Shown in pieces: positions 1 through 50,509 of a DNA stretch of 64,000 nt. How positions within the stretch are numbered: the first letter of the stretch is position 1; each line of letters starts with the position of its first letter. The DNA is taken from NCBI RefSeq assembly GCF_000189635.1, contig NW_002476243.1:15625-79624 (forward strand). The letters are read 5' to 3'. A program made the translations under genes and the position numbers. The notes below the pieces were generated by a model. It was given only the letters and a program-made list of their open reading frames with translations. It did no database searches and had not been told where the DNA came from. This stretch comes from Tetrahymena thermophila SB210 (lineage: Eukaryota; Ciliophora; Oligohymenophorea; Hymenostomatida; Tetrahymenidae).

Positions 1-1541
1 TAATTAACTAAATATATTTTCTTCAATATTTAAAAAGGTGGAATAAAATAATTGGTGATTAAGGTGCATCAGATTCTGGTCATGGTTTAGGAAACTGCAC
101 TAAATTGTTTGATTTGACACTTTAACTAAGGTAAAAACTGTTTATTTGTTTTGAATTGAGGTATTTTTGAATATAAAAATTAATTCAAAACAATAAACTA
201 GATTTTTCAATTTATTTATTAACTTTTTATTTTATTTAATTTTCTTTTTTTTTTTTCTTTCTTTATCTATTTGATAATTTCACTCATATTTTAATTTTAA
301 TTTGATCTTTTATAAATTAATTTATTTGTTATAATTTTATATTTTTTATTCATTCTTTCGTTCTAAATAGTTAAATAAATATTTTTTCTTCTTCAATATT
401 TAAAAAGGGGTAATTAAATTGGTGATTAAGGTCTATTTGGTTTATGTTCTGGTTTAGGAAAGAGCTCTAATCTCTTAAATTTGACACTTCAAATTCAGTA
501 AAAGCTGTTTATTTTTTTATGATAATAATATTTTTTTAATAAAAAAAATAAATTTAAAACAATGTAACTAACTAACTCTTTCAATTTATTTATTAACTTT
601 TTATTTAATTTAAATATCTTTTTTTTTCTTTTATTTATTTGTCAATTTATTTAACTCATTTTTTCAGTTTTAACTTTTGCTTTTATTTTTATTATATATT
701 TTTCATTCAGTCTTTCCTATTAACTAGCTAATTACGAATATATTTTTCTTGTATATTAAAAAAGGGAGAATAAAATTAGTGATGATGGTGTATCAAATTT
801 ATGTAATAGTTTAGCAGAAATCACTAATCTTATAAGCTTGACACTTAATCTTAGGTAAAAACCGTTTATTTATTTTAGATTATGATATTTTTTAATATAA
901 AAATGAATTTAAAACAATAAAACTAACTAACTAAAATACTAACTCTTTCAATTTATTTATTAACTTTTTATTTTATTTAGTTTTCTTTTTTTATTCTGTT
1001 TGTATATTTTTTTTTCAATTGCTGATTTAACTCATTTATAATTTTTAACTTTTATTTTTATTAATAATTAATTTCTTATTATTCATATTTTTCTTACTAA
1101 CTAATAAATTAATTAACTATTTATTATATTCGATATTTAAAAAGTTCTAATAATACGAGTTTCATAGGTGCATAAAACTTACTTTTAGGTTTAAGAAAGA
1201 CTAATATCTCAACTTTGAGACTTTATTAAGGGTAAAAACTCTTTATTTGTTTTGGATTGTAATATTTTTAAAATAAAAATGAATTTAAAGAAATATTAGT
1301 AACTTTTTACATATTTATTTATTAGCTTTTTATTTGATTTATTTTTCTTTTAAAATTTTATTCAACTAACATTTTTTATCGATTTAAAATATAATATTTT
1401 ATTTACAATTTCATTCCATTTAATTTATATTTGTTATTTACACTAATTTATATTTAAAGAGTCAATGAAAAAGAAAAAGAAATATTGATAGAATTAGGCA
1501 AGAGGAGCAAATCAAAATTAGTTTTATTCCAATTGAATTGA
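1..1541 (+). CDS. LRR-array gene A, 3' part (5' end outside window)
   Basis: Four consecutive LRR exons and a terminal exon, code 6. Exons: 38-130, 408-497, 765-854, 1145-1231 and 1460-1541 (TGA 1539-1541). The LRR exons are 93, 90, 90 and 87 nt. Each begins with one base and ends with two bases of a split codon (phase 2), so each carries one repeat of about 30 residues of the type N-x-I-G-D-x-G-x-x-x-L-x-x-x-L-x-x-C-x-x-L-x-x-L-x-L. Donors read GTAAAA and acceptors TTTAAAAAG. The last exon has no LRR and ends in a basic tail, K-S-K-L-V-L-F-Q-L-N. The start and earlier exons lie left of the window. RI-like LRRs usually bind protein; no partner can be deduced. Exon 1145-1231 is the most degenerate. 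Confidence 0.8.
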
Positions 1542-1897
1542 TCATAAAAAAGCTATTAAAAAAGTGCTAATAAATATAAAAATATTTGAATAATATATTA
1601 TAATATTATATGTTTTTTTATACAATATTTTGTAATCTGATAAATAAACCTAAAAAGTAGATAGAAAGATATATAGCACACCAGGTATTAAATTCTTATT
1701 TAGGCATGTGGAGAATTAAGAATTTAATTTATGGATGGATTTACTATAAATATAGTAGATTAATTAATTAATAAATAAATAAATTAAATAATTTTATTTT
1801 ATTTTTTATTATAAAATATTTTTTTGATTTATAATTTTTTAATATAATTAATTAAATTCCATAAATTGCTAATCAATATTTTTGAAAAAAAAAATAA
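1542..1897. other. Spacer between LRR genes A and B
   Basis: No coding exon seen. It contains the conserved hairpin at 1681-1734. The region around 1560-1660 resembles the 3' flanks of the next two genes (about 6200-6290 and 10130-10210), so it is probably the 3' flank of gene A followed by the promoter of gene B. Confidence 0.6.
1681..1734 (+). repeat. Conserved hairpin element, copy 1
   Basis: Inverted repeat: left arm CCAGGTATTAAATTCTTA, right arm TAAGAATTTAATTTATGG, 15 of 18 positions complementary, with a loop ending in GTGGAGAAT. A second copy with the same arms and loop end lies in reverse orientation at 43796-43845. Both copies sit about 130-140 bp past the stop codon of one LRR gene and before the start of the next on the same strand. 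Function unknown: a 3'-end RNA structure, a small mobile element, or shared ancestry of the spacer. Confidence 0.7.
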
Positions 1898-4800
1898 ATG
1901 ATACAATAGATTAAAGAATATTAAAAATTAGAAGAAGTAATTATTTATTTTTTTATTAATATCCTTTATATTTATTTTTATTAATAAAAAAAGTTTTTAA
2001 ACTCTTCACTTTAATCTCATTAGGTTCTACATATTGATCTCAAGTACATTTAATTAAGAAATATTATTAATATTTTTTATAAATTTAACTTTCAATTTAT
2101 TTAAAAAAATAATTTTTATAATAAAAATTATCATCAATTACTCACTATTCATTAATTTTTACTTATTCAAAAAATTTAAATCTATTTCAACTTAATTTAC
2201 ATATCAATTTTTAATTATTATTATTCATTTTTATTATTTGATATTTTTTCTTCATTTTTGCTATTAACTTAATAAAAAAATTTTTATTAGTTTGGATGAT
2301 TGTAATATTTTTAATGATAAAAATAATTTAAAACATTAAAGCTATTTTAATTTATTTGGTTTATTTTTCTTTTAATTGTGTTTGCTTTCTTTTTATAACT
2401 TTCTTTGTTAATTTAACTAATTATTTATTAATTTATCTTATTATTTCATATTTTTTCTTCATTTTTTCTTTATAATCAACTAATTAATTATATATTTTTT
2501 CTTCAATATTTAAAAAGTGATAATTAAATTGATGATGAAGATGCATCAGACTTAGGTTCTGCTTTAGCAAATTGCATTAATCTCTCAAATTTGACACTTA
2601 ATCTTGAGTAAAAACAGTTTATTTGTTTTGGATTGTGATATTTTTAATTATAAAAACTAATTTAAAACAATAAAATCTTTTTTTCTTTTTCTTTTTATTG
2701 TGCTTGATAGCTTTTTTTCTTCTTTCTTTGTTAATTTAACTCATTTTTTTATTTCAACTTTTGCTTTTATAAATAACTAATTAATCTTATTATTTCATAT
2801 TTTTTCTTCATTTTTTCCTTCTAATTAACTAATTAATTATATATATTTTTTTAATATTTAAAAAGTAGAGATAAAATTGGCGATGAATGAATGAAATACT
2901 CGCACATAGAAATGCACTCAGAATACATCTTAAATGAAATATTTAATAGTAGTTAATACATTTATTTATTTTTATATTTTATTTTATTTTTATTAAATTA
3001 AAAACTTGAAACAATTGATGCATTAGATGCAACACTTGATGCACTAGATGCATTAGATGCACTAGAAGCATTAGAAGCACTAGAAGCATATGAAACAAAA
3101 CACATTATATCCTAAATTTTTGGAAAGTTTAAAATTGGCGATGAAGGTGCATCAGGCTTAGGTTCAGGTTTAGCAAATTGCATTAATCTCTTAAATTTGA
3201 CACTTAATCTTCAGTAAAAACAGTTTATTTATTTTGCATTATGATATTTTTAATTATAAAAAACTAATTTAAAACAATAAAGCCTTTTTTTCTTTTTCTT
3301 TTTTATTATGCTTAATTGATTTTTTTCTTCTTTCTTTGTTACTTTAACTCATCATTTTATTTTCAAATTTTGCTATTATTATTAATTAATCTTATTATTT
3401 CATATTTTTTCTTCATTTTTTCCTTCTAATTAACTAATTAATTATGTTTTTTTCTTCAATGTTTAAAAAGTTAGAATGAAATTGGTACAGTGGGTGCATC
3501 AGATTTAGGTTCTGCTTTAGCAAAGTGCATTAAGCTCTCAAATTTAACACTTAATCTTGAGTAAAAACAGTTTATTTATTTTGGATTGTGATATTGTTAA
3601 TTATAAAAATTAATTTAAAACAATAAAGCCTTTTTTTCTTTTTCTTTTTATTTTGCTTGCTTACTTATTTATTTTCTTCTTTTTTGTTAATTTAACTAAT
3701 CTTTTTATTTTCAACTTTTGCTTCTATTTTTCATTAATCTTATTATTTGATATTTTTTCCTTCAAATTAACAATTTAATGATATATTTTTTCTTCAATAT
3801 TTAAAAAGTTAGAATGAAATTGGTGCAGTGGGTGCATCAGATTTAGGTTCTGCTTTAACAAAGTGCATTAAGCTCTCAAATTTAACACTTAATCTTAAGT
3901 AAAAACAGTTTATTTGTTTTGGATTGTGATATTTTTAATTATAAAAATTAACTTATTTTCTTCTTTTTTGTTAATTTAACTTATCTTTTTATTTTCAAAT
4001 TTTGCTTTTATTTTTCATTAATCTTATTATTTGATATTTTTTCTTCATTTTTTCCTAGGAATTAACAATTTAATGATATATTTTTTCTTCAATATTTAAA
4101 AAGTTAGAATGAAATTGGTGCAGTGGGTGCATCAGATTTAGGTTCTGCTTTAGCAAAGTGCATTAAGCTCTCAAATTTAACACTTAATCTTCAGTAAAAA
4201 CAGTTTATTTGTTTTGGATTGTGATATTTTTAATTATAAAAATTGACTTATTTTCTTATTTTTTGTAAATTTAACTTATTTTTTTATTTTCAAATTTTGC
4301 TTCTATTTTTCATTAATCTTATTATTTGATATTTTTTCTTTCCTAGGAATTAACAATTTAATAATATATTTTTTCTTCAATATTTAAAAAGTTATAATAA
4401 AATTGGTACAATAGGTGCATCAGGCTTAGGTTCTGCTTTAGAAAATTGCATTAATCTCTCAAATTTGACACTTAACCTTTGGTAAAAACAGTTTATTTAT
4501 TTTGGATTGTGATATTTTTAATAATAAAAAGTAATTTAAAACAATAAAGCTATTTTTTTTTCTTTTTATTGTGCTTTTTTGCTTTTTTTTCTACTTTTTT
4601 TGTTAATTTAACTCATTATTTTGATTTCAACTTTTGCTTTTATTAATAACTATTTAATCTTATTATTTCATATTTTTTCTTCATTTTTTCCCTTTTAATT
4701 AACTAATTAAATATATATTTTTTCTTCAATATTTAAAAAGTTAGAATTAAATTGGTGCAATGGGTGCATCAGACTTAGGTTCTGCATTAACAAAATGTAT

Positions 4801-6195
4801 TAATCTCTCAAATTTGAAACTTAATCTTTAGTAAAACAGTTAATTCATTTTGGATTGTGATATTTTTAATTATAAAAACTAATTTAATAAACAATAAAGC
4901 TCTTTTTTCTTTTTATTGTATTTGCTTGCTTTTTTTCTTCTTTCTTTGTTAATTTAAGAATTCATCATTTTATTTTCAACTTTTTCTTTTATTATTAATT
5001 AATTAATCTTATCATTTCATATTTTTTCTTCATTTTTTCCAAATTATTAAATAATTAAATATTTAATTTTTCTTCAATAATTAAAAAGTAACAATTTAAT
5101 TGGTTCAATGGGCGCATCAGATTTAGGTTATGCTTTAGCAAAGTGCATTAATCTCTCAAATTTGACACTTAATCTTTGGTAAAAAGAGTTTATTTATGTT
5201 GGATTGTGATATTTTAAATTATAAAAACTAATTAAAAACAATAAAGCTCTTTTTTTTCTTCTTTATTGTGCTTGCTGCTTTTTTTTCTTCTTTCTTTGTT
5301 AATTTAGCTCATCATTTTATTTTCAACTTTTGCTTTTATTTTTCATTAATCTTATTAATATTTATTTTTTTCTTCATTTTTTCCTTCTAATTAACTATTT
5401 AATTATATTTTTTCTTCAATATTTAAAAAGTTGTAATGAAATTGGCGATGAAGGTGCATTAGGCTTAAGTTCTGCTTTAGCAAAGTGTATTAATCTCTCA
5501 TGTTTGGCACTTGATCTTAGGTAAAAACAGTTTATTTATTTTGGTTTGTGATACTTTTAATTATAAAAATTAATTTAAAACAATAAAGTTCTTTTTTCTT
5601 TTACTATTTATTGTGCTTGATATCTTTTTTTCTTTTTTTTTGTTAATTTAACTCATAACGTTATTTTAAACTTTTGCTTTCTTTTATTAATAATTAATTA
5701 ATCTTATAAGGTTATATTTTTTCTTTATTTTTTCCTTCTAATTAACTAATTAATGATATATTTTTTCTTCAATATTTAAAAAGTAAAAATTAAATTGGCT
5801 ATAAAGGTATATCAGGTTTAGGTTCTGGTTTAGTAAAGTGCAAAAATCTCTCATATTTGACACTTAATCTTTAGTAAAACAGTTTATTTATTTTGGATTG
5901 TGATATTTTTAATTATAAAAACTAATTTAAACAATAAAACTCTTTAAATTTATATGATAGCTTTAATATGATTTATTCTTTGATCTTATTAATACCACTA
6001 ATTTATTTTATTTATTAATTTAAGAAAAAGTTTTTAATTTAAAATTTTATTTTATTTAATGTTTATTTAAAATTTACACAAATTTTTAATAAAAGTGTTA
6101 CCATTATGACTTTCATGACAAAATAAGAAATATTAAAAGTAAATAGCAAATATCTTAAATCAAAAAGATTAGTGGTCTTTGATATATAATTCTGA
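1898..6195 (+). CDS. LRR-array gene B, interrupted by a 258-bp insertion
   Basis: Exons: 1898-1936 (ATG), 1994-2043, then LRR exons 2518-2607, 2866-3213, 3471-3560, 3809-3898, 4104-4193, 4392-4481, 4741-4830, 5089-5178, 5431-5520 and 5784-5873, then 6096-6195 with TGA. Exon 1 encodes M-I-Q-Q-I-K-E-Y-Q-K-L-E-E; the intron after it is phase 0 and all later ones are phase 2. Nine LRR exons are exactly 90 nt. The second is 348 nt because of an insertion that creates an in-frame TGA at 2888-2890. Without the insertion the protein would be 362 aa; as it stands, 67 aa to the stop. A frame starting at ATG 2891 stays open through the remaining exons (380 aa). The C-terminus ends K-S-K-R-L-V-V-F-D-I-Q-F. 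Exons 3809 and 4104 with their introns are nearly identical, a very recent one-exon duplication absent from gene C. Skipping exon 2 would restore the frame. Confidence 0.85.
2873..3145 (+). repeat. 258-bp in-exon insertion bounded by 15-bp direct repeats
   Basis: The 15-mer AAAATTGGCGATGAA occurs at 2873-2887 and again at 3131-3145. The matching exon of gene C (7277-7366) has it once and continues straight into the LRR. The inserted length (258) is a multiple of three. It brings TGA (2888-2890), immediately followed by ATG (2891-2893), then an AT-rich part that would encode a hydrophobic stretch, then a 9-nt minisatellite. The direct repeat could be a target-site duplication or a trace of strand slippage. 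Confidence 0.85.
3014..3089 (+). repeat. 9-bp minisatellite encoding (L-D-A)n / (L-E-A)n
   Basis: About eight copies of a 9-base unit close to CTAGATGCA, drifting to CTAGAAGCA in the second half. In the frame of the surrounding LRR exon it reads as repeated Leu-Asp-Ala then Leu-Glu-Ala, an amphipathic, probably helical stretch. It lies inside the insertion in gene B and is absent from gene C. Confidence 0.85.
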
Positions 6196-6359
6196 TTATA
6201 AACAATCAAGCGGTGAAAAAATATGAATAAATCTAAAATGTTTGAATAATTGAATATTATATGTTTTATTATATAATATTTTGAAAAAATTTGTTTAACT
6301 TAAAATATGGATAGATAAATAGATTTTATTAAAAAATACCATATTTTTTTAAATTAATA

Positions 6360-6410: not shown

Positions 6411-6436
6411 AGTTTTTAAAAAATTTTTAGAAAAAG

Positions 6437-9400
6437 TTTTTAAACTCTTCACTTTAATCTCATTAGGTTCTACATATTGATCTCAAGTACATTATATTTT
6501 TTATAAATTTAACTTTCAATTTATATAAAAAAATAATTTTTATAATAAAAACTATCATCAATCACTCACCATTCATTAATTTTTATTTATTCAAAAAATT
6601 TAAAGCTATTTCAACTTAATTTACATATCAATTTTTAATTATTTATTATTCATTTTTATTATTTGATATTTTTTCTTCATTTTTGCTATTAACTTAATAA
6701 AAAAAATTTTATTATTTTGGATTGTAATATTTTTAATAATAAAATTAATATAAAACATTAAAGCTATTTTAATTTATTTTATTTATTTTTTTTTTAATTG
6801 TGTTTGTTTTCTTTTTTTAAATTTCTTTGTTAGTTTAACTAATTATTTATTAATTTATCTTATTATTTCATATTTTTTCTTTATTATCAACTAATTAATT
6901 ATATATTTTTTCTTCAATATTTAAAAAGTGATAATTTAATTGATGATAAATATGCATCAGACTTAGGTTCTGCTTTAGCAAATTGCATTAATCTCTCAAA
7001 TTTGACACTTGATCTTTAGTAAAAACAGTTTATTTGTTTTGAATTGTGATATTTTTAATTATAAAAGCTAATTTAAAACAATAAAGCCTTTTTTCTTTTT
7101 CTTTTTATTGTGCTTGATAGCTTTTTTTCTTCTTTCTTTGTTAATTTAACTCATTCTTTTAATTTCAACTTTTGCTTTTATTAATAACTAATTAATCTTA
7201 TTATTTCATATTTTTTCTTCATTTTTTCCTTCTAATTAACTAATTAATTATATATATATTTTTAATATTTAAAAAGAAGAGATAAAATTGGCGATGAAGG
7301 CGCATCAGGCTTAGGTTTTGGTTTAGCAAATTGCATGAATCTCTTAAATTTGACACTTAATCTTCAGTAAAAACAGTTTATTTATTTTGATTTGTGATAT
7401 TTTTAATTATAAAAACTAATTTAAAATAAGAAAGCCTTTTTTTCTTTTTCTTTTTATTATTCTTGATTGCTTTTTTTCTTCTTTCTTTGTTACTTTAACT
7501 CATCATTTTATTTTCAAATTTTGCTATTATTATTAATTAATCTTATTATTTCATATTTTTTCTTCATTTTTTCCTTCTAATTAACTAATTAATTATGTTT
7601 TTTTCTTCAATATTTAAAAAGTTAGAATAAAATTGGTGCAGTGGGTGCATCGAATTTGGGTTCTGCTTTAACAAAGTGCATTAAGCTCTCAAATTTAACA
7701 CTTAATCTTCAGTAAAAACAGTTTATTTATTTTGGATTGTGATATTTTTAATTATAAAAATTAATTTAAAACAATAAAGCCTTTTTTTCTTTTTCTTTTG
7801 CTTGCTTACTTACTTACTTACTTATTTTCTTCTTTTTTTTTAATTTAACTAATCTTTTTATTTTCAACTTTTGCTTCTAATTTTCATTAATCTTATTATT
7901 TTATATTTTTTCTTCATTTTTTCCTTCGAATTAACAATTTAATGATATATTTTTTCTTCAATATTTAAAAAGTTAGAATAAAATTGATTCAGTGGGTGCA
8001 TCAGATTTAGGTTCTGCTTTAGCAAAGTGCATTAAGCTCTCAAATTTAAAACTTAATCTTAAGTAAAAACAGTTTATTTATTTTGGATTGCGATATTTTT
8101 AATTATAAAAATTAATTTAAAACAATAAAGCCTTTTTTTCTTTTTCTTTTGCTTGCTTACTTACTTATTTTCTTCTTTTTTGTTAATTTAACTTATCTTT
8201 TTATTTTCAAATTTTGCTTCTATTTTTCATTAATCTTATTATTTGATATATTTTCTTCATTATTTATTTCTAATTAACTATTTAATGATTTATTTTTTCT
8301 TCGATATTTAAAAAGTTAGAATTAAATTGGTGATGAAGGAGCATCAGGCTTAGGTTCTGCTTTAGCAAATTGCATTAATCTCTCAAATTTGACACTTGAC
8401 CTTCGGTAAAAACAGTTTATTTATTTTGGATTGTGATATTTTTAATTATAAAAACTAATTTAAAACAATAAAGCTATTTTTTTTCTTTTTATTGTGGTTT
8501 TTTGCTTATTTTTCTACTTTTTTTGTTAATTTAACTCATTATTTTAATTTCAACATTTGCTTTTATTAATAATAAATCTTCCTATTTCATATTTTTTCTT
8601 TTTTTCCTTCTAATTAACTAATTAAATATATATTTTTTCTTCAATATTTAAAAAGTTAGAATTAAATTGGTGCAATGGGTGCATCAGAATTAGGTTCTGC
8701 TTTACAAAAGTGCATTAATCTCTCAAATTTGACACTTTATCTTAGGTAAAAACAGTTTATTTATGTTGGATTGTGATATTTTTAATTATAAAAACTAATT
8801 TAAAACAATAAAGCTCTTTTTTCTTTTCTTTTTATTTTGTTTGCTTGCTTTTTTTCTTCTTTCTTTGTTAATTTAAGAATTCATCATTTTATTTTCAACT
8901 TTTGCTTTTATTAACAATTAATCTTATCATTTCATATTTTTTCTTCATTTTTTCCAAATTATTAACTAATTAAATATATAATTTTTCTTCAATATTTAAA
9001 AAGTTACAATTTAATTGGTTCAACGAGCGCATCAGATTTAGGTTCTGCTTTAGCAAAGTGCATTAATCTCTCAAATTTGACACTTAATCTTCGGTAAAAA
9101 CAGTTTATTTATGTTGGATTGTGATATTTTAAATTATAAAAACTAATTAAAAACATTAAAGCTCATTTTTTTTTCTTTTTATTGTAATTGCATTTTTTTC
9201 TTCTTTCTTTGTTAATTTATCTCATCATTTTATTTTTAACTTTTGCTCTTATTTTTCATTAATCTTATTAATATTTATTTTTTGTTCATTTTTTCCTTCT
9301 AATTAACTATTTAATGATATATTTTTTCTTCAATATATAAAAAGTTGTAGTGAAATTGGCGATGAAGGTGCATTAGGCTTAAGTTCTGCTTTAGCAAAGT

Positions 9401-10114
9401 GTATTAATCTCTCATGTTTGTCACTTGATCTTAGGTAAAAACAGTTTATTTATTTTGGTTTGTGATACTTTTAATTATAAAAATTAATTTAAAACAATAA
9501 AGTTCTTTTTCTTTTACTATTTATTGTGCTTGATATCTTTTTTTCTTTTTTTTTAGTTAATTTAACTCATAACGTTATTTTAAACTTTTACTTTCTTTTA
9601 TTAATAATTAATTAATCTTATAAGGTTATATTTTTTCTTTATTTTTTCCTTCTAATTAACTAATTAATGATATATTTTTTCTTCAATATTTAAAAAGTAA
9701 AAATAAAATTGGCTATAAAGGTATATCAGGTTTAGGTTCTGTTTTGGTAAAGTGCAAAAATCTCTCAAATTTGACACTTAATCTTTTGTAAAAACAGTTT
9801 ATTTATTTTGGATTGTGATATTTTTAATTATAAAAACTAATTTAAACAATAAAACTCTTTAAATTTATATGATAGCTTTAATATGATTTATTATTTGATC
9901 TTATTAATACCACTAATTTATTTTATTTATTAATTTAAGAAAAAGTTTTTAATTTAAAATTTTATTTTATTTAATGTTTATTTAAAATTTACACAAATTA
10001 ATTTTTAATAAAAGTGCTACCATTATGACTTTCATGAAAAAATAAGATATATTAAAAGTAAAAAGCAAATATCTTAAATCAAAAAGATTAGTGGTCTTTT
10101 ATATAAAATTCTGA
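6437..10114 (+). pseudogene. LRR-array gene C, intact array lacking the start exon
   Basis: Exons: 6437-6486 (homolog of exon 2), LRR exons 6929-7018, 7277-7366, 7622-7711, 7973-8062, 8316-8405, 8656-8745, 9004-9093, 9345-9434 and 9698-9787, and terminal 10015-10114 with TGA. All nine LRR exons are 90 nt, phase 2 and free of TGA. The tail is K-S-K-R-L-V-V-F-Y-I-K-F. No counterpart of the first exon of gene B is present between the stop of gene B (6195) and 6437. The frame leading into exon 2 is open back to a TGA at 6251 without an ATG, and the one nearby ATG (6307) has no donor of fitting phase. It is either a start-less duplicate or is read through splicing from gene B, whose phase-2 donors fit these acceptors. 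The lack of decay suggests youth or continued use. Confidence 0.75.
7798..7823 (+). repeat. Short CTTA/CTTG microsatellite in an LRR intron
   Basis: About five CTTA units next to a CTTG unit in the intron between exons 7622-7711 and 7973-8062. The sister intron of gene B and the next intron have fewer units, so its length varies between copies. Confidence 0.7.
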
Positions 10115-10527: not shown

Positions 10528-13500
10528 TCATTTTAGAAATTTCATTACCAATCTCTTCACTTTTGAAATTAACTACAAAAATTTAATTTGCAACTATTTG
10601 TCAGTATTTTTTCTATTTTATTTGATTTCAAAGCAATTAATTAACATAAATTGGTAAAAGTAATTTTTACCTAAAAACTATTTCTAAAATTGATAGTTTA
10701 GCACACTTAGATAGAGATAAACCTAGGTCTATTATGTCCATATTTTCAAATATAATTTTACTTTTAAATTATTTTGCATTAGTTTGTATTGATTGAAATA
10801 ATAAAAATAAATTTGCAATAAAAAGCTAAGTAAAAATAAAAAGCATTTCTTAATAAAAAAATAAATTAATTTCAAGTTAAATTAATATATGATATATTTA
10901 ATAATGTATAAAATAAATTACTTAATTGATAGTTTCAAATAAAAAAGGCTTTCACATTTCATTAAAGAAGAACCTAAATTTTAAAACCCGACTCTATCGA
11001 TTTCATTATTGCTTTTAATATTTTATTAATTTATTTGATTTAAATCAGTAAGAAAAAAATTAATGCATACTAATTAATTAATGAAGAAGTTATATTAAAT
11101 TATTGTTTATAATTCATTAAATAACTAAGTTAAATAAAAAATTGTTTAAATAATTATTTTTACTTGAGTTTTATTTTCAAGTATGAGAGATTAGTGTATT
11201 TCGCTATAGCAAAAACTAATTTTTATGCTATCTAACAACCAATATAATTCTATCTTTTGAGGTATATTATACAAATTTATTAGTTTTTGTTCAATTATTC
11301 AAATAATAATTAAATTGTAAGTTTAAATTACAAACTAATTAAATGTAAGTAAGTAAATAAATAAATATTTTAATTTGCTATTTAATTTTCGATTACATTC
11401 AAAATAAATTAAATTAAAAATAAAACAATTTTTACGAAAGGTCAATTGCAAATTTTGAGAGATTAGGAAATTTTTCAAACTAAAATTCACTCTCTGCATC
11501 AATTTAATCATTTCTAATAATATATTTAACATAATTTATTTATTTAATGATTGACTAAAATAATTCAGAATATATTTTATATTTATAAACATAAAGATAA
11601 AATTAAAAAAGGATAGTTATTTCTGTGAGTAATAATTTATAAGGAATTATAGTGTTTTACTTTAATTTTACATTTAAATCTGTAAGACTACTACACTTTT
11701 CTAATTCAGAAACTAATTTAAAAAGTCCTAATTCACCTATCTTATTATTCCTTATAAATAAATTTATTAATTTTTGTATATAGAAATAAAATAATTTGAT
11801 ATTTAACTTTTATTTCAAAATTAATCAAAAAGTATTAAAAATAATAGGTAATTTTGCAAACAACAAAACAAAGAAGTTTACTATTAAAATAAATTTTTAT
11901 TTTATGTGTGTTTATAATAATTTATTAAAAATCAAACTAATAATTATTTTTACGAAAGATCAAGTTTCAATGTTGTGAGACTAGAGAAATGTGTAAGTAA
12001 AGAAACAAGCTCAAATGCACAATTGGCATCAATTTAATTTTCTCTATTAAATATTTATGTTAAAATTTAAGAAAGTTGATCAAAGAAAATTAATAATTAA
12101 TCAATTAAATAAATAAATAATATATTAAAATAATTGATTGGATATAAAAAATTAATAAATGTTTATTAAATTTCTGAGTAAATATCTAATAGCTCAAAAA
12201 CAGGTTTTACTATAAATCGAGAGTAAAATCTATGAGATTATGCCACTTTTATAGAACCAAACATAACTTAGAGGCAATTTCTACACCAATTTAATTTTAA
12301 CTTTTAATTTATTTAGTAAAAACGTATTTGCTTAAGAAAAATCATATTTTTTTTATTAGTTTTAGACAAATAAAACCAAAATAAATAAATTAAAAATAAA
12401 AATTATATATACTTGAGGCGGAGGGTAAATTTTGTGAGATTAGTGTACTTTTGTAAAATAGATTTTAATTCTTCTACTTCCAATTCTCTTATGATACTTA
12501 GACTTTTAAATTTATACCAATTAATTAAATGTTAAAACAAACAAATTATGTTAATCTGAATAGAAAATTATTCAAAAAGTAGTTGAAATTCAGAAAAATA
12601 AACTAGTCAATCAATAAAATAAACAAATAAAATCTAAAATAAATTATTATATCTAAACAAGATAATTTTTTGTTCAATTTCTGAATAAATATCTAAAAAT
12701 TCAAACAAAAAAAACAGTTCTTACTCCAGTGATAGATTCAAATTTGCAAAGTCATTACGCTTATATACATATAAGGATAAATAAGAGGCATTTTTTCACA
12801 TTTTTCATCTTACCTATTAATATATTGGCAAAATCATTTTCTTATGTAAGAATAATCTTTTTTTATTAGTTTTTAAAGTAAAATAAAATAAACTAGTTTT
12901 ACTCAAAAGTAATTTCATTATTTGAGAAATAAGTGCTGCTTGCTAGAGTAAAAATTAAATCAGAGACACCCTACAAACTACTTTAATTAGTTCTAATTTT
13001 TTTTTTAATTTACCATGAATTAATAAAAAATTAATAACAAAATAAGAGATTGAATCTTTATTTAATAAAGATTATTAAATTTATTTAATATCTAAATGTT
13101 TAAATAATGAATATCAAAGTATATTAAATATTTTTACTAAAAGAATATATCTAAGTTTTTAATAGAAGTACATTTTACTAAAGCCAAACCTAATTCAGAT
13201 GTACTTTTCGTATTAATTTCATTTTCTCTTCTAAATTTAAAAATAAATAGTTAAATAAAAATTTAAAAATAAACATTAAATAAAAATTTAAAAATTATGG
13301 TTGATAAAAATCTGAATTGTATGTCTGTATTAAAAATTAATAAATAAACTCTAAAATAAGTTATCCAATTTAAAGAACAAAATTTTATATGCTTAATTTC
13401 TCAATAGATATCTTAGAAAAATAAAAAAAAATTTTACGATAAAAAGAGTGTCAAATATGTGAGACTATTACACTTTTATAGAGCCAAACATAAATTAGTG

Positions 13501-39520: not shown

Positions 39521-42500
39521 TCAAATTTATTAATAGATATTAGTCCTTTTTTCTATTTTTAAGTCAACTAATCTTTTTGATTTAAGACACTTTACTTTCA
39601 TTTATTCTAACTAAGAATAATAGAATTGGTTGCACCTTTTAATATAAATTATTGTAAATAACTAAAAAATAAATAGAAAAAATGTTAAAATAAAATTTTA
39701 TATATTAAATCGATAAATAAAAAAAAGCTTATCATAATAAAATATAACAAGTAACATAAATCAAATCAACAATTAATAAATAAAAAAATTTCACAATCTA
39801 AAACAAGTAAATTATTTTTACTAAAGATTAAGTGTTAAATTTGAAAGATTAGTGCACTTTCCTAAACCTGAACCTAAATCTGATGCACCTATAAGGTCAA
39901 TTTAATTGTATCTTTTTAAATATTAAGGAAAAAATATATTGTTAATTAATTAATTAATTAAAAGGAAAAAATGAAAAGAAAAAGTTGAAAATGAAAAATG
40001 AGTTAAATTAACAAAAAAATATAGAAAGAAAGAAAAAAACAAACAAAATAAAAACAAAAATAAATCATATAAAAAGCTAATTAATAAATAAATTAAAAGA
40101 GTTTGTAAAATAGTTTTAAATTAATTTTTATTTTAAAAAATATCACAATCCAAAATAAATAAATAAACTGTTTTTACGCAAGTTAAAGTTCGAAATTAGA
40201 GAGATTAGTGCACTTTTCTAAATCAGAACCTAATTTTGATGCCCCAATTGCACCAATTTAATTGCAACTTATCAAATTTTGTAGAAAAATATAGAGTTAA
40301 TTAATTAGTTAGAATTAAAAAATGAAGAAAAAATATGAGACAATAACAAATTAATTAATAACTTAAAAGCAAAAGTTTAAAATGAAAAATTGAGTTAAAT
40401 TGACAAACAAATAAAGAAAGAAAAAAGAAAAAAAATCAGAAGAAAAATAAAAATAAATTAAAAGCTAATCATTTTTTTCGTTTTTAAATTAAAAAATATC
40501 ACAATCTAAAATAAATTAACTGTTTTACGAAAGGTTCAGTTTCAAATATTAGAGATTAATGCACTTTCCTAAACTAGAACTTAATCCAGATGCACCTTCA
40601 TTACCTATAGAATTTTCCCTTTTTAGATATTGAAGAAAAAATATACAGTTAGTAAATTAGTAAGAAGGAAAAAATGAAGAAAAAATATGAAACAATAAGA
40701 AATTAACTAATCAATTACTTAAAAGCAAAAGCTAAAAAGTTAAAAATGAGTTAAATAAATTTCAAGAAAATAAAAAAAGAAAGAAAAAAACAATAGAATA
40801 AAAAACAAGAAGAAAAATAAATCAAATTAAAATCTAATAAGTAAATTAAAAGAGTTAATTTTTTATTTTAATTCAAAAAATATCACAATCAAATACAAGT
40901 AAACTTTCTTACTAAAGCTAAAGTTTTAAATTTGAGAGATTATTGCAGTTTGCTAAATTAAAACATAAGCCTGATGCACCTTCATCACCAATTTAATTAA
41001 ACCTTTTTAAATATTAAAAATAATATGAAACTATAAGAAATTAATTAATAATCAAAAGCTGAAAATGAAATAATGAGTATAATTAACAAAGAAACAAAAA
41101 AAATAAATAATATAAAAAAGAAAATCATATAAAAAGCTATTAAATAAATTAAAATTGTTATTTTGTTTTAAATCCTTTTTTATATTAAAAAATATCCTCA
41201 TCCATTACAAATAAATTGTTTTTACTAAAAACTAAGTGTCAAATTTGAGAGATTAGTGCACTTTCCTAAACTTTTACCAAAGCCTAATGCTCCCATTTTA
41301 CCAATTATATTTTAACTTTATAAATATTGAAGAAAAATATTTAGTTAATTAATTAGATAGAGGGAAAAAATGAAAAAAAAATAAATATGAAACAATAAGA
41401 AATTAATTAAAAATAAAAGCAAAAGTTGAATATTAAAAAACGAGTTAAATTAACAATCAATAATAGAGAAAAAAGAAAAAAAACAAGCATAAGAAAAAGA
41501 AATATAAATCAAATAAAAAGCTAATAAATAAATTAAAAAAGTTAGTTTATTCATTTTAAATTTTGTATTCAAAAGTATCACAATAAAAATTAAATAAACT
41601 GCTTTTACTCAAGAAAAAGTGTGATATTTGAGAGATTAGTGCACTGTTCTAAACCAGAACCTAAGTTTGATGTACCTTAATCATTTATCTAATTCCACCT
41701 TTTTAATTATTGAAGAAAAAATATATAATTAATTAGTTAATTAATTAAAAACGAAGAAAAAGTATGAAATAATAAGAAATAAAGGAATTAATTAAATAAA
41801 AGCAAAAGTCGAATATGAAAAAATGAATAAAATACACAAATAGAAAGAAAGAAAAAAAAACAATAGAGTAAAAAATCAAATAAAAATCTTATAAATAAAT
41901 TAATAGAGTTAGTTATTTTATTTTAAATTCCTTTTTATATTAAAAAATATCACAATCCAAAACAAGTAAACTGCATTTACGAAAGATCAAGTGTCAAATT
42001 TGAGAGATTACTGCACTTACCTAAACTAGTACCTAAAACTGATGCACCTAAATCGCCAATTTAATTTTTACTTTTTAAATGTTGAAGAAAAAAATTATTA
42101 TTAATTAGTTATTTAGAAGTAGAAGGAAAAAATGAAGAAATTTATGAAATAATAAGAAATTAATTAGTCATTAAAGTAAAAGTAGAAAACTAAAAAATTA
42201 ATAAAATTAACAAAAAAACAAATAAAAAAACAAGCTGAATAAAAAAAGATAAAGAAATCAAATAAAAATCTAATAAATAAATTAAAATAGTTAGTTATAT
42301 TGTTTTAAATTCATTTTTATATTAAAAAATATCCTAATCCTAAACAAATAAACTATTTTTACTCAAGAAAAAGTGTTAAAGATGAGAGATTAGTACACAT
42401 TTTTAAACCATAACCTAAGCCTGATAGACCTTTATTACTAATTTTATTTTAACTTTTTAAATATTGAAAAAAGATATTTAGTTAATTAGTTAGTTAGTTA

Positions 42501-43479
42501 GTTACAAGGAAAAAATAAAGAAAAAATATGAAATAATAAAAATTGAACTAATCGAGAAAAGAAGCAAAAGTTGAAAATAAAAAATGAGTATAATTAATAA
42601 TAAAGAAAGAAAGAAAAAATAAGTATAAACTGTTTTTACTTAAGATCAATTCTCAATTTTAAGAGATTAGTGCACTTTGCTAAACCAGAACCTAAGCTTG
42701 ATGCATCTTTATCACTAATTTTACTTTTTAAATATTGAAGAAAGATATTTAATTAATTAGTTATCTTGAAGGAAAAAATGAAGAAAAAATATGAAATGAT
42801 AAAAATTGTATGAATTAATTAATAAGAAAACTAAAATTAGAAATTGAAATTGAAAAAATAAGTTAAATTAATAATAAAGAAAGAAAGAAAAAACAACAAA
42901 TTAAAATAAATAAAAAGCTAATAAATAAATTAAAAGAGTTAGCTATATTGTTTGAAGGCTTTATATGAAATAATATCACAATACAAAACAAATAAATTGA
43001 TTTTACCTAGGACTAAGTTTCAAATTAAAGAAATTAAGGAACTTTCTTAAGAGAGAACCTTCATTACCATTTTAATTTCCACTTTTTAAATATTAAAGAA
43101 AAAATATATAGTTAGTTTCTTAGTTAGTTAGAAGGAAAAAAAGAAGAAAGAATATCAAATATAAAAAATGAGTAATTAATGATCAATATAAAAATTTAGT
43201 GAAAGTTAAGTTAAAATAATAAAAAATATTTTTATAAATAAAAATTAATGAATTTTGATAATTTATATTTGAAACATAATATTGTAAATAACTTGAAAGT
43301 TAAATATAAAAAATATTAATAAATTAAAAAAACCTCAGAAAAATATCAAGAACCTGATGCAATTAAAATGAAGAGTTTAAAAACTATTTTTATTTAAAAA
43401 AATAGATTTAAACAATAGTATTAAAAAAATAAATATTTACTTCTTTTAGGTTTTTAAAATAATTTTTCTCTAATATCAT
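39521..43479 (-). CDS. LRR-array gene L (360 aa)
   Basis: Exons, right to left: 43441-43479 (ATG, 13 codons), 43334-43383, LRR exons 43007-43081, 42640-42723, 42363-42452, 41981-42070, 41609-41698, 41226-41315, 40913-41002, 40529-40618, 40178-40267 and 39822-39911, terminal 39521-39635. Eight LRR exons are 90 nt; the first two are 75 and 84, still phase 2 and in frame (total 1083 nt). No TGA inside any exon. The first repeat has lost five residues of its consensus. The tail contains C-L-K-S-K-R-L-V-D-L-K. Introns carry the same conserved ends as genes B and C on the other strand. It lies downstream of gene M in the same direction, separated by a spacer with the conserved hairpin. Confidence 0.87.
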
Positions 43480-43580
43480 TTTCTTTTTCAATAATATTGA
43501 ATTGCAATTTGTAGAAATTTAATTAATAATTATATTAATAAATTAAAAGAACAAACAAATTATATTAATTATCAAATATA

Positions 43581-43989: not shown

Positions 43990-46900
43990 TCAAATAAAGT
44001 CTATTTAAAAGAGAACTAATCTTTTTGATTTAAGACACTTTTTTAATATTTTCTATAATTTTAATTTATTGATTTAGATTTCCCTATTATTTTTAATTCA
44101 AATAAAACATTAAATAAAATAAAATAAATAGAACAAAACTTTTAAATTAAAAATCATATTTAAAATTAATAAATAAAAAAATTAGCATAAATGAAAGAAA
44201 AAGAAAAATAAATCAATTAAAAAGCTAATTAATAAGTAAAAAGTGTTATATTATTTTAAATTCATTTTTATAATTCAACATAGCATAATCTAAAACAAAT
44301 AAATATTTTTACTTAAGAGAAAGTGTCAAATTAGAGAGATTAGGGCAATTTGCTAAAGTAGAACATAAGCCTGATGCACCAATTGCACCAATTTTATTGA
44401 AACTTTTTATATCGAAGAAAAAATTTATTATTAATAAGTAAGAAGGAAAAAATGAAGCAAAAATAATAAGAAATGAATTAATTTTTTATAATAAAAGCAA
44501 AATTTGAAAATAAAAAATGAGTTGAATTAAGAAATATAGAAAAGAGAAAAAAAAATAATCCCAATAAAAAAGAAAAATAAATCAAATATAATCCAAATAA
44601 GAAAACAAAATTAGTAATATTGTTTTAAATTCATTTTTATAAATAGAAATATCACAATCCAAAACAAATAAACTGTTTTTACGAAAGATCAAGTGTCAAA
44701 TTAGAGAGGTTAGTGCAATTTTCTAAAGCAGAACCTAAGTATGATGCACCAATTTCACCAATTTCATTTACCCTTTTTAAATATTGAAGAAAAAATAAAA
44801 AATTAATTAGTTGATAAAGGAAGAAGAAAAAAAAATAATAATAAATGAATTAATTAATTAAACATAAAACAAAATTTGAAAATTAAATGAGTTAAATTAA
44901 GAAAGATAGAAAAAGAAATATATACACAAGTACAAAAAAAAGGAAAAGAAAAATAAATCAAATAAAATGCTAATAAACAAATTAAAAAAGTTATAAATTC
45001 ATTTATTAAACTAAAAATATCACAATCCAAAATAAATAAATTGTTTTTACTAAAGTTTAAGTGTCAAATTAGAGAGATTAGTGTAATTTACTAAAGCACA
45101 ACCTAAGCTTGATGCACCTTCATCACCAATTTAACTCCTACTTTTTAAATATTGAAGAAAAAATATATCATTAATTAATTAATTAGTTATAACAAAAATA
45201 AAATAATAATATGAACTAATTAATAATAATAAAAGCAAAATTAAAAAATAAAATCAGTTAAATTAAGAAAGATAGAAAAAAATAAATAAAAAAGTGCAAT
45301 AAAAAAGAAAAAGAAAAATAAATCAAATAAAATGTTAATAAATAATTTAAAAAAGTTTTTTTATTTTAAATTCATTTTTATAACTAAAAATATCACAATT
45401 AAAAACAAACAAATAAACTTTTTTTACTAAAGATCTAGTGTCAAATTGGAGAGATTAGTGCAATTTGCTAAAGCAGAACCTAAACCTGATGCACCAATTG
45501 CACTAATTTAATTGCAACTTTATAAATATTGAAGAAAAATAAGAATTATTAGTTAGAAGGAAAAAATGAAGAAAAAATAATAGTAATAAGTGAAATAATT
45601 AACAAAAATAAAAGTAAAATTTGAAAATAAAAATAATTTAAATTAAGAAAGATAAAAAAAATAAATATACAAATGCAATAAAAAAGAAATAGAAAAATAA
45701 ATAAAATAAAAAAGTTATATTTATTTTTATTCATTTTAAAAACTAAAAATATCACAATCCAAAACAAATAAACTGTTTTTACTTAAGTTCAAGTGTCAAA
45801 TTAGAGAGATTAGTGCAATTTGCTAAACCAAAACCTAAGCCTGATGCACCTTCATCACCAATTTTATTGCAACTTTTTAAATATTGAAGAAAAAATTAAT
45901 AATTAATCAGTTGAAAATATTAAAATAAAAAAAATAGATAAAAAGTAATTAATGAGCTAACTCAAAATTTCGGAAATTACAAAGGTAAAAACTTTAACCC
46001 AAACTACAAAAGCCATAAAAAATATATAATTAAATTATTAAATAAAATAAAAGGTGAGGAAATAAATTAAATTGTGATTATATATTATTTGTAGACCAGT
46101 CTTGGCACTTATTGAATTGAATTGAATTAATCAGTTGATAAAAAAAAATGAAAAAAAATAATAAGAATTGAATTAATTGAAAATAATAAAGCAAAATTTG
46201 AAAATAAAAAATGAGTTAAATTAAGAAAGATAGAAATCATAAAAAAAACAAGTATAATAAAAAAGAAAATAATAAAATGCTAATAAACAAATGAAAAGAG
46301 TTATTTTGTTTTAAATTAATTATTATAACTATAATAAATAAACTGTTTTTACTGAAGACTAAGTGTCAAATTAGAGAGATTAATGCAATTTGCTAAAGCA
46401 GAACCTAAGCCTGATGCACCATTTGCACCAATTTAATTGCAACTTTTTAAATATTGAAGAAAAATATAAATTTTTAGTTATTTAGAAGGAAAAAATGAAA
46501 AAAAAAAAAATTAATTAATTAATAATAATAAAAGCAAAATTAAAAAAAATGAGTTAAAATAAGTAAGATAGAAAAATAAATACACAAATACAATAAAAAA
46601 GAAAAATAAATCAAATAAATAAATAATTAATAAATAAATAAATTAAAAAAGTTTTATTATTTTAAATTCATTATTTTAACTAGAAATATCCCAATCCAAA
46701 ATAAATAAACTATTTTTACCGAAGACTAAGTTTCAAATTAGAGAGATTAATGCAATTTGCTAAAGCATAACCTAAGCTTAATACACCATCCACACCAATT
46801 TAATTCTAACTTTTAAATATTGAAGAAAAAATATACATCTTAGTATAAAGAAAAAATGAAGAAAAAAAAATAAATTAATTAACAATAATAAAAGCAAAAT

Positions 46901-49900
46901 TAAAATCAAATAAAATGCTAATAAGCAAATTAAAAAAGTTTTAAATTCATTTTTATAACTAGAAATATCACAATCCAAGGCAAATAAACTGTTTTTACTT
47001 AAGATTAAGTGCCAAATTAGAGAGATTAGTGCAATTTGCTAAAGCAGAACCTAAACCTGATGCACCATTTGCACCAATTTAATTGCAACTTTTTAAATAT
47101 TGATGAAAAAATATAAAATATTTAATATAAGTTAAGAAATGAATTAATTCTTAAAATAAAAGCAAAATTTTGAAATAAAAAATAAGTTAAATTAAGAAAG
47201 ATAAATTAATAAAAAAAAAAAGCAAGTACAATAAAAAAGAAAAAGAAAAATAAATCAAATAAAATTCTAATAAATAAAAAGAGTTTTATTATTTTAAACT
47301 CCTATTTAAAAATAAAAATATCCAAATCCAAAACAAATAAACTATTTTTACTCAAGCTAAAGTGTCAAATTTGAGAGATTAGCGCAATTTGTTAAAGCAA
47401 AACCTAAGTCTGATGCGCCTTCATCACGAATTTAATTGGAACTTTTTAAATAATAAGTACTATTAAAAAAAGAAAAATAAATCAAATAAATGCTAATAAA
47501 AAGTTATAAATTTATTGTTATAACTAGAAATATCAATATCCAAAGCAAATAAACTGTTTTTACTTAAGATTAAGAGTCAAATTAGAGAGATTAGTGCAAA
47601 TTGCTAAAGCAGAGCCTAAGTATTATGCACCATTTGCACCAATTTAATTGTAACTTTTTAAATATTAAAGAAAAAATATATAATATTTTATTTTAATTAG
47701 AAGGGAAAAATGAAGAAAAAATAATAAGAAATGAATTAATTTATAATCACAAAAGCAAAATTTGAAAATAAAAATGAGTTAAATTAAGAAAGATAGATAA
47801 CAAAAAAAAAACAAAACAAATAAACAATTTTTACTCAAGACTAAGTGTCAAATTAGAGAGATTAGTCCAATTTACTAAAGGAAAATATAAGTCTGATGCA
47901 CTAATTGAACCAATTTTATTATTACTTATTAAATATTGAAACAAAAATAATTAGCTAGTAAGAAAGAAAAAAATAATAATTGAATTAATTAATAACAATA
48001 ATGATAAAAGCAAAATTTTAAAATAAAAAAATGAATTAAATTAATAAATAAAGATAGGGAAAAAAAAAGCACACAATTAAAAGAAAAAAGAAAAATAAAT
48101 AAAATAAAATGCGAATCAATATATAAAAAGAGTTTAATTAAATTGATTTTTAAAACTAAAAATATAACAATCTAAAACAAATAGACTGTTTTTACCAAAG
48201 ATAAAGAGCCAAATTAGAGAGTGTAGTGCAATTTGATAAAGCAGGACCTTAGTTTGATGCATAAATTGCATCAATTTTATTATGACTTTTAAATATTGAA
48301 GAAAAAATATATAATTAATTAGTCTGTTTGAAGGAAAAATTAAAGAAAAAATAAGAAGAAATGAATTTATTAATAATAATTAAGCAAAGTTAAAAAATAA
48401 AAAATGAGTTAAATTAAAAAACATAGAGAAAAAAAACATAAGATATAATAGATATTGGTAACACGAACTCAGTAGAATAGTTTCCCATTTTGACGAATTT
48501 TCATGTATTTATAAATACGTGAAAATTCATCAAAATGGGAAACTATTATACTGAGTTGTGTTGCCAATATCTATTAAATCATAAGTAATAAAATACAAAA
48601 ATAAAAAATATATCAAATAAATTGCAATTAAAAGAGTTGTTTTATTTTAAATTCATTTTTTAACTCTAAATATCACAATCAGAAACAAATAAACTGTTCT
48701 TACGTAAGATTGAGTCTCAGATTAGAGAGATTAGTGCAATTTGTTAAAGCAGAACATAAGCCTTATGCACCAATTGCACCAATTTAATTCATACTATTAA
48801 AATATTGTAGAAAAACAAAACATTAATTAGTTAGTTAGAAGGAAAAAATAATAAGAAATTAATTAATTAATAATAATAAAAGCAAAATATGAAAATAAAA
48901 AATGAATTAAATTAAAAAAAACACACAGGTACAATAAAAAAATAAAAGTAAAATGCTAGTAAACAAATAAAAAGAGTTTCTTGCTTTATTTTAAATTAAT
49001 TTTATAACTATAAATATCACAATCAAAAACAAATAAACTATTTTTACTTAAGATTAAGTGTCAGATTACAGAGATTAGTGCATTTTGCTAAAGCAGAACC
49101 TAAGTCTGATGCGCCTTCATCACCAATTTAATTGGAACTTTTTAAATATTGTAGAAAAAAATAAATTAATAATTAGTTAGAAGGAAAAATGAAGAAAAAA
49201 TAATAAGAAATGAATTAATTAATAATAATAGCAAATTTTGAAAATAAACAATGAGATAAATAAAGAAAGATAGAAGAAAAAAAAAACACACACACACAAG
49301 TAAAAGAAAAAGAAAAAGAAAAATAAATTGCTTATAAACAAATACAAAGAGTTATTTTATTTTAAATAAATTTTAAAAACTAAAAATATCACAATCTAAA
49401 ACAAATAAACTGTTTTTACGAAAGATAAAGTTTCAAATTAGAGAGATTAGTGCAATTTGCTAAGCCATAACCTAAGCATGTAGCACCTTCATTACCAATT
49501 TAATTGGAACTTTTTAAATATCAAAAAAAAAGAGTATTTAATAAATTAGTTAGAAAGAAAAAATTAAGAAAAAATAAATTAATTTATTAAAATAAAAGTA
49601 AAATTTGAAAATAAAAAAATTAAGAAAGATACAAATCAAATAAAAATATGCAAGTTCAAAAAAAAAAGAAAAATAAATAAAATTAAATGAGTTATATTTT
49701 TTTAAAATTATTTTTATCATTAAAAATAGCACAATCCAAACAAATAAACTATTTTTACTCAAGATTAAGTATCAAATTAGAGAGATTAGTGCAACTTCCT
49801 AAAGCATAACCTAATCCTGATGCACTTTGATTAGCAATTTAATTCTTACTTTTTAAATATTGTAGGAAAAAGTATAAATTTAGTTAGTTTGATGAAAAAA

Positions 49901-50509
49901 ATTAAATTAATATTTTATAATAAAAGCAAAATTTGATAATAAAAAAATGATTAAAATTAAGAAAGATAGTAATAATAAATAAAAAACCCAATTACAAAAA
50001 TAAAGAAAAATAAATCAAATCAAATAAAATGCAAATAAACAAATAAAAAGTGTTATATTTTTTTGAAAATTCATTTTTATAACCAAAAATATTTCATAAT
50101 CCAAAATAAATAAACTATTTTTACTTAAGATTAAGAGTCAAATTTGAGAGATTAGTGCAATTTGCTAAAGCAGGACCTAAAAATATTGCACCAATTGCAT
50201 TAATTTAACTTTTAAATATTGTACAAAAAATAAAAAACGTTAGTTAGAAGGAAAAAATAAAGAAAAAATAATAATAAATGAGAATTGCTAGTAATTAATA
50301 AATCGTAAGTTAAGTATTTAGAAAGTATTAATAATAATAATAATATTTTTTAATTAAATATACTAAAGATCAATATGGAGAGCATTATGAGACTAAAGTG
50401 AAGAGTTTAAAAACTTTTTATATTATTAAAAATAAATTTATAGATTATTGATAAAAAAATAAATAATTACTTTATCTAAATTATTGTAAATTTTAATCTA
50501 TTATATCAT
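43990..50509 (-). CDS. LRR-array gene M (17 repeats, 568 aa)
   Basis: Exons, right to left: 50471-50509 (ATG), 50364-50413, LRR exons 50125-50208 (84 nt), 49759-49848, 49420-49509, 49048-49137, 48704-48793, 48196-48285, 47835-47924, 47564-47653, 47352-47441, 46999-47088, 46720-46809, 46353-46442, 45783-45872, 45428-45517, 45051-45140, 44683-44772 and 44313-44402, terminal 43990-44083. I read every exon: none contains TGA, all are phase 2, and the total of 1707 nt is in frame. Start M-I-Q-Q-I-K; tail C-L-K-S-K-R-L-V-L-F-Q-I-D-F-I. In part of the array, repeats with G-D-E-G-A alternate with repeats carrying G-A-(I/N)-G-A, suggesting growth by two-exon units. The intron before 48285 contains a 131-bp palindrome, and that between 46353 and 45872 a 224-bp insertion; neither touches an exon. 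Confidence 0.88.
45902..46138. mobile_element. 224-bp intron insertion with 13-bp direct repeats
   Basis: ATTAATCAGTTGA occurs at 45902-45914 and 46126-46138. Sister introns continue from the first copy directly into the sequence after the second. The inserted DNA is richer in G and C than the intron and shows no clear coding sequence or terminal inverted repeats. The direct repeats suggest a target-site duplication or an earlier duplication of flanking sequence. Confidence 0.5.
48446..48576. mobile_element. 131-bp near-perfect palindrome in an intron
   Basis: The arms start TAATAGATATTGG and end CCAATATCTATTA and run to a loop-less centre GTATTTATAAATAC. Over about 65 bp per arm I count only about five differences, most of them transitions that leave G-U pairs in one RNA strand. 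No coding. It has the form of a MITE or foldback element, and its transcript would make a long hairpin. No other copy in this window. Confidence 0.75.

Follow-up and report, generated by a model that had tools for sequence, protein, structure and literature searches.

One leucine-rich repeat (LRR) exon in the window, which is the whole 64,000-nt stretch of Tetrahymena thermophila DNA analysed here, is broken by a 242-nt insert, and the related copies found elsewhere in the genome point to an element family that seems to be specific for one site inside the LRR exon. We regard it as quite probable that the region as a whole is explained by the published LRR exon arrays, a retroelement family that uses one exon site, frame-neutral skipping of the broken exons and diversification of the repeat surface. 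For the stronger claim, namely a non-LTR family strictly specific for one codon-level exon motif, affordable through the symmetric repeats and acting as a motor of repeat-number change, we would give even chances. The arrays, their phase bias, their expansion and the link to the REP retrotransposon are already known, while the single exon site, the independent insertions, the frame-neutral loss in gene B and the site-level selection pattern were not found in print.

Xiong et al. 2019 (PMC6564038) described thousands of LRR genes with exons of exactly 90 bp; their survey spans ten Tetrahymena species, T. thermophila among them, and more than 98% of the introns before 90-bp exons are in phase 2. 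The growth of these genes was ascribed to ectopic recombination, together with a link to REP and a cycle of intron length. The genes of the window are such published T. thermophila genes, in which each exon encodes one LRR of 30 residues and has phase-2 introns on both sides. They have in common with the group III LRR genes of PMC6564038 the 90-bp exons, the phase-2 introns, six conserved leucines and introns near 257 nt, and also the variable unit number, the ectopic recombination and the probable REP tails retained in the macronucleus. The first-pass annotation of this DNA had pointed to reports of this kind in Tetrahymena; such a report exists and covers T. thermophila (PMC6564038), and the title and reasoning of that annotation match its content.

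To locate the exons we took all 90-nt segments that lie between AG and GT on either strand (238 sites, of which 163 have an open phase-2 frame with table 6) and gave each a position-specific score from an LRR exon profile trained on the window itself, with a cut-off of 12 bits. Earlier scans by regular expression had found no exons at first and only some of them at the second attempt, and the position-specific score was used instead. It turned out that 66 segments in the whole window scored above 12 bits as 90-nt phase-2 exons with one LRR (30 on the forward and 36 on the reverse strand), while 20 dinucleotide shuffles gave no exon above this value, the best shuffle score being -17. In the consensus LRR (252 units) leucine stands at positions 12, 16, 22, 25, 27 and 29, and each of these six positions has 0-2 replacements among 41 pairs. 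Genome-wide counts below refer to the 101-Mb, 445-contig assembly. The TERT exon ORFs of this genome equal T. thermophila TERT (PDB 6d6v) letter for letter over well-aligned stretches, and C4A2 telomere repeats are present in it. Table 6 applies, since the window is T. thermophila macronuclear DNA.

The exons fall into seven genes (A 2, B 9, C 9, D 11, K 9, L 8 and M 16 exons of 90 nt) and two single 90-nt LRR exons, at 35983 on the reverse and 57357 on the forward strand, the latter beyond the range of the first-pass annotation. By profile score, gene A (408..854, forward) has two exons at 408 and 765 and a further LRR stretch at 48, and its start lies beyond the window. Gene B, on the forward strand, starts with exon 1 (1898..1936; ATG, 39 nt, phase-0 donor) and exon 2 (1994..2043; 50 nt, phase-2 donor, within a conserved 69-nt stretch) in the gene model. 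Its first intact 90-nt LRR exon (2518..2607), supported by both profile score and gene model, is followed beyond the broken exon by eight more (3471, 3809, 4104, 4392, 4741, 5089, 5431 and 5784, together 3471..5873) and by a modelled last exon of 100 nt ending in TGA (6096..6195). Gene C (6437..10114, forward), a tandem relative of B, has the 50-nt exon 2, nine 90-nt exons and a last exon; it is open from exon 2 to its stop, and a search for its exon 1 gave no recognisable one. For gene D (10671..14361, reverse, eleven 90-nt exons) and gene K (36680..38867, forward, nine, with a tenth at 38983 just below the threshold) only the array was traced, by profile score. Gene L (39521..43479, reverse) was modelled with 13 exons and 360 aa, including LRR exons of 75 and 84 nt besides eight of 90 nt, and gene M (43990..50509, reverse, starting at 50509, where the range of the first-pass annotation ends) with 20 exons and 568 aa, its LRR exons comprising sixteen of 90 nt and a single 84-nt one.

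Complete ATG-to-TGA models were obtained for B (999 nt; 12 exons and 332 aa with the broken exon left out), L (1083 nt) and M (1707 nt), each with its sole stop at the end. These three genes share one anatomy: a 39-nt exon 1 ending in phase 0, a 50-nt exon 2 ending in phase 2, the LRR exons (90 nt, except for three cases of 75 or 84 nt) and a last exon ending in TGA. By eye, a similar 5' anatomy is present in L016-L020. All modelled junctions of B, C, L and M are in phase 2 except that between exons 1 and 2 of B, L and M, which is in phase 0. Only LRR families of Pfam matched B, L and M (LRR_6), and the 11 PDB hits of gene L include LRR chains of RanGAP and of the dynein regulatory complex; the RI type is a candidate class for these LRR proteins. 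B and C had been considered as 5'-truncated pseudogenes; this was dropped, as B is complete with exons 1 and 2 and only C is without exon 1. Likewise, the dispersed 69-nt stretch upstream of B and C was rejected as a REP tail. It belongs to the 5' end that the genes have in common (exon 2): in L014, L015 and L017-L020, LRR exons come after it at a comparable spacing, and copies on the other strand lie upstream of M and L.

Most of what the first-pass annotation had proposed about the arrays is supported by these results, including its general interpretation of exon arrays that change by whole units. Its estimate of about 65 exons of exactly 90 nt on both strands agrees with the 66 found against none in 20 shuffles. 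One LRR per symmetric phase-2 exon was borne out by the profile scan and the models of B, L and M. Exons of other lengths keep the frame as predicted (in L one of 75 nt and one of 84 nt, in M another of 84 nt), and the expected multiples of three are seen in the complete ORFs of B, L and M. An exon duplication at 3809/4104, said to be present in B and absent from C, is real as well: B has three near-identical units (3471, 3809 and 4104; 97-98% identical) and C has two (7622 and 7973), while the B introns after 3809 and 4104 are alike and about 45-50 nt shorter than the intron after 3471. The comparison of B and C and the gene models back unit-wise duplication of exons. Introns inside the B array measure 248-263 nt, except for two of 205 and 198 nt (intron row 3119 left out), and the exon spacing in D and K is mostly shorter. 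The alternation of repeat types claimed for M holds roughly and not strictly, judged by eye from the translation.

The annotation had also reconstructed gene B in two halves. The split is real, yet there are not two genes: an insertion lies within one exon (2866-3213), which the annotation had overlooked, and this accounts for the two halves. The unit is cut after its base 22 (5' part 2866..2887, nt 1-22) and resumes at its base 7 (3130..3213, nt 7-90). Between them lies the 242-nt insert (2888..3129), which consists of a short tandem repeat, a conserved 3' module (core 2910-2935) and the rest of a 236-bp repeat; the two exon parts and the insert are all given on the forward strand. A 16-nt target-site duplication, TAAAATTGGCGATGAA, flanks the insert on both sides, with its left copy at 2872-2887 and its right copy at the start of the exon remainder. 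Over the 184 nt compared, the insert is 99.5% and 98.9% identical to those at two other loci, L042 and L043. Without the broken exon gene B is a single ORF, while reading from the broken exon into the insert meets a TGA after 7 codons. From these reading frames we infer that the broken exon is omitted from the gene B mRNA and the frame is kept, which is consistent with the frame-neutral exon loss put forward in the first-pass annotation. The exon would be left out together with both its introns, so that one repeat is lost; the frame is kept on skipping because the exon is symmetric. In other copies the frame read on into the insert stays open for 6 to 381 codons (59 copies), which in most of them is much more than the 7 codons of B, so that some inserts may serve as terminal exons.

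To count related inserts, we searched the genome with the whole insert, which gave 139 candidates (40 of them scored), and with its 3' module. The 26-nt core of the module has 110 copies at up to 2 mismatches, and an overlapping 26-letter pattern of the module has 109 matches; the reversed control gave 0 in both cases. We examined 62 copies, contained in the window and in 60 regions that were chosen by how closely they matched the module, whatever their flanks (100 of the 110 were listed). In 59 of the 62 the junction lies at nt 15-26 of a 90-nt LRR exon, with modes at nt 20 (34 copies) and nt 22 (11 copies), that is, just after the codons for N-x-I-G-(D/A). One of the 59 positioned copies, L083, has a weak left score of 11.1. 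The three exceptions are L050, which by eye has the same spot and whose score stops early, L061, which is degenerate, and L092, which is without an LRR flank. In the 59 copies the module is on the LRR coding strand in one orientation; as the exon scan covered the module's own strand, the opposite orientation could sit just among the three exceptions. The short tandem repeat and the conserved 3' module of about 44 nt stand at the junction. The 3' module forms a weak and unconvincing hairpin on folding (z -0.9 to -2.05).

Genome-wide, the hexamer AATTGG occurs 3-29 nt upstream of the module on the same strand in 74 of 109 matches and in 0 of the controls, where exact hexamers were counted and variant ones were not; outside the 62 copies the junctions were seen as matched letters. 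Calculated by hand from base composition, the chance of AATTGG in a 27-nt range is below 1%.

LRR gene introns have been stated to be favoured REP targets, and remnants were placed within introns of genes with RNA-Seq evidence (PMC6564038). If this were the whole account, the exon position would be an effect of how the copies were picked. We consider this very unlikely, since the copies were found by the module alone and not by their flank, and nearly all of them lie in the exon. Moreover, once a gene model drops a broken exon, a single long intron takes it in, and the published assignment would be explained in this way. We propose that the broken exon is dropped by gene models and probably by the spliceosome too, so that two introns merge. 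Insertion of REP into introns has also been proposed to lengthen them (PMC6564038). This idea does not follow from the copies here, because they begin in an exon.

The far side of the insertions is less uniform. Among the 62 copies the exon resumes at nt 7-11 in 10, at nt 19-29 in 6 and at nt 39-64 in 8; the next match starts at nt 1-4 in 13, mostly as the next whole exon, and no match lies within 1.4 kb in 25. Both flanks of one exon are therefore seen in 24 copies at most. A target-site duplication of 12-16 nt was recognised by eye in 6 of the 10 copies that resume at nt 7-11 (the window, L033, L052, L055, L067 and L077), while the other four (L041, L057, L068 and L089) have, also by eye, no duplication of the local exon. 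Five of the six duplications carry variants absent from the consensus, and that of L077 has a mismatch. One orientation, a tandem repeat beside the 3' module and duplications or deletions on the far side fit the target-primed insertion of a non-LTR element. In such a mechanism the element's endonuclease would place its nick in the coding strand around exon nt 20, that strand would serve as the primer, and ATTGGTGAT in the LRR exon would be needed for this cut.

A common position could also be inherited. Ectopic recombination has been reported to spread the repeats (PMC6564038), and the insertion position is nearly constant; one ancient insertion, multiplied with the LRR repeats by unequal crossing over, would then reflect descent and not target choice. 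We compared the flanks of 59 of the 62 copies (left score above 14; L061, L083 and L092 were left out) with intact units scoring above 55. Tail flanks were no more alike among themselves than intact units (AUC 0.442 versus 0.440). Their best match was another tail flank in 4 of 59 cases, although tail flanks make up 21.6% of the pool; it lay at the same locus in 26 and was an intact unit elsewhere in 29. Tail similarity and flank similarity were uncorrelated (Mantel rho 0.03, p 0.36). By pairwise local alignment, used because BLAST grouping lumped 45 copies, the inserts beyond the module form 15 groups, each with two to six members, and 19 singles, which have little in common beyond the 3' module.

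Within these groups the inserts were more identical than the flanks in 44 of 44 pairs (mean 0.990 versus 0.850, with 0.825 for random flanks; L069 and L058, loosely joined to two groups, were left out). Since the groups are defined by insert similarity, only the flanks are informative here: on average their identity is close to background, and in single pairs it reaches 0.94. This slight closeness of within-group flanks is what descent would predict. Against it, flanks taken from different copies resemble each other no more than unrelated units do, and the local variants in the target-site duplications of five copies do not suit a single origin, so that we judge common descent of the insertions to be highly improbable. 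With inserts 99% identical and flanks 85% identical, the insertions look independent, as far as their sequences tell.

The element is probably the published REP, whose description fits: a 3' tail of 54 bp is conserved, 169 copies of this tail occur in the macronucleus, and there is an association with LRR units. REP was described by Fillingham et al. 2004, as cited in PMC6564038, and it is by this description that we liken the conserved 3' tail, the LRR association and the many macronuclear tail copies. Our count is 110 (26-nt core, up to 2 mismatches) against 169 published REP tail copies. The one RVT_1 hit seen (C134) lies in a 3.7-kb locus in which none of three tail motifs occurs. According to PMC6564038 the macronucleus loses most of REP by excision, and SINEs with the 3' end of a LINE are common (PMC3747384). 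The inserts here, which have the 3' module in common with each other, might accordingly be complete short non-autonomous SINE-like elements with the REP 3' module and not excision remnants of REP. In several insert groups the resemblance ends at one shared point. For example, L045 and L057 are identical over 174 of 174 nt and L036 and L038 over 129 of 129 nt up to their common end, and the window, L026 and L027 have one end in common before the sequence departs. A fixed boundary of germline excision would also give common ends, however, and some groups have no end inside the 260 nt compared. Short SINE-like elements are a serious candidate in our view, at somewhat less than even odds. The element would be REP itself, or short elements mobilised by REP.

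With REP as the likely source, the LRR array would offer a target that is renewed and costs little, and repeats would in turn be removed by the element, while the arrays grow and shrink by whole units of exon plus intron. The main difference from the published group III genes lies in the site, as PMC6564038 puts REP insertions in introns and the copies seen here lie at exon nt 15-26. The main text of PMC6564038, supplements aside, makes no mention of a site-specific REP target or of exon disruption. Among the matches listed there was no other paper on REP target choice, and Fillingham et al. 2004 may contain part of it.

For selection on the repeats, we used 285 units, among which 52 pairs match each other best in both directions when introns alone are compared; those introns also supplied the neutral spectrum. 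Relative to neutral expectation, pairs whose introns diverge by up to 12% have a replacement/silent ratio of 1.05-1.11, and for all 52 pairs together it is 0.77. In the former pairs, changes at positions 26, 28, 1 and 3 reach 3.8-4.5 times the neutral expectation, or about 3.1-3.6 times the silent rate, and those at the nine hydrophobic scaffold positions 0.17-0.26 times the neutral expectation; over all 52 pairs the values are 5.2 and 0.99, respectively. At the 12% cut the four positions are among the six highest of 29 by observed/expected, the others being 6 and 7; they were named after the uniform-rate pattern had been seen, and the test was not blind. We take these four positions to be the outward x of the LxLxLxxNxI beta strand, whose junction residue was unscored. 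Gene-wide positive selection was rejected: the uniform-rate pN/pS is 1.7, and with the intron-derived spectrum the overall excess is gone and the site pattern is left.

The pattern suggests diversifying selection at the surface positions of the beta strand, which is expected for recognition proteins. Relaxed constraint combined with exon exchange between genes would be a different source of the excess. The overall ratio near or below one agrees with this, and silent exon change is 1.07-1.45 times the intron expectation, which makes it likely that exons were exchanged to some extent. Relaxed constraint cannot push the rate above neutral, however, and the four surface positions change several times faster than the neutral rate with the scaffold far below it, which makes relaxation doubtful as the explanation. 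Gene-wide Ka/Ks gave purifying selection in PMC6564038, whose main text, supplements aside, makes no mention of positive or diversifying selection or of a concave surface, and here the pattern is diversifying at the level of sites. Both can hold, with a conserved scaffold and a diversifying surface.

Frame-preserving, skippable LRR exons are also found in human NLR genes such as NLRP3 (PMC6642158), where an exon is 171 bp and holds two LRRs and where alternative splicing was shown, while here it is deduced from reading frames. As for the target, the family resembles R2 in rDNA (PMC5035012, PMC10499050) and Utopia in U2 snRNA genes (PMC4640811) in its multicopy target, its sequence-specific site and, here by deduction, target-primed insertion. 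The targets named for elements of the R2/Utopia type are RNA genes, microsatellites or non-essential sequence, whereas here the target is a protein-coding exon. We know of no other non-LTR element with a protein-coding exon as its specific target, nor of a retroelement that targets human NLR LRR exons.

If REP is specific for the exon, its puzzling association with LRR genes has a simple and testable cause. The published 'intron' insertions and the REP-driven cycle of intron length would then need re-reading, and many of the long introns would each consist of a dead exon flanked by two introns. Besides, the site-level pattern, new as far as we know, is a hint that the LRR proteins bind variable partners. 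The finding bears on repeat-number change in a large and fast-evolving LRR family; if it is true, Tetrahymena has a mobile element with frame-neutral coding exons as its refuge, and the element and the receptor-like repeats would expand together, with the binding surface under diversifying selection.

When the two LRR genes B and C were compared, the divergence of exons (2-8% in eight matched exons) was higher than that of introns (0.4-4% in six matched introns), with pS of 0.046 and pN of 0.067. In gene M, a long imperfect palindrome (about 48450-48570 of the window, minus strand), which has the form of a hairpin-like insert, lies in the intron that separates exon 48793 from exon 48285.

The segment 35240-35983 (minus strand), flanked by gene K on one side and a transporter-like reading frame on the other, contains one intact 90-nt exon and two LRR remnants, each of which, by eye, lacks one splice site. 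By profile score, a lone 90-nt LRR exon is located at 57357-57446 (plus strand), beyond the range covered by the first-pass annotation of the exon arrays (1..50509), and the profile scan of the window gave no further scored exon in its neighbourhood.

Interleaved with the LRR arrays, four clusters of reading frames on the minus strand (18372-23659, 29207-34246, 50887-55929 and 59464-63808) resemble paralogous ABCC-type ABC transporters. Pfam matches to ABC_tran and ABC_membrane were obtained for the two pieces tested, and the remaining pieces were assigned by eye from their reading frames. Another reading frame (25122-26492, minus strand) belongs to the UTP-glucose-1-phosphate uridylyltransferase family.

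The macronuclear assembly has a single RVT_1 match, at locus L093 (G000:C134:182753-183433). The open frame there is LINE-like: it carries a reverse transcriptase domain, and its N-terminal part appears endonuclease-like by eye. Among the listed genomic junctions between LRR exons and the inserted element, the short repeat differs between copies, with GAATA, GAATG, GAATT, GAT and AAGAT units, as though these units either arose during insertion or were passed on within lineages of the element.
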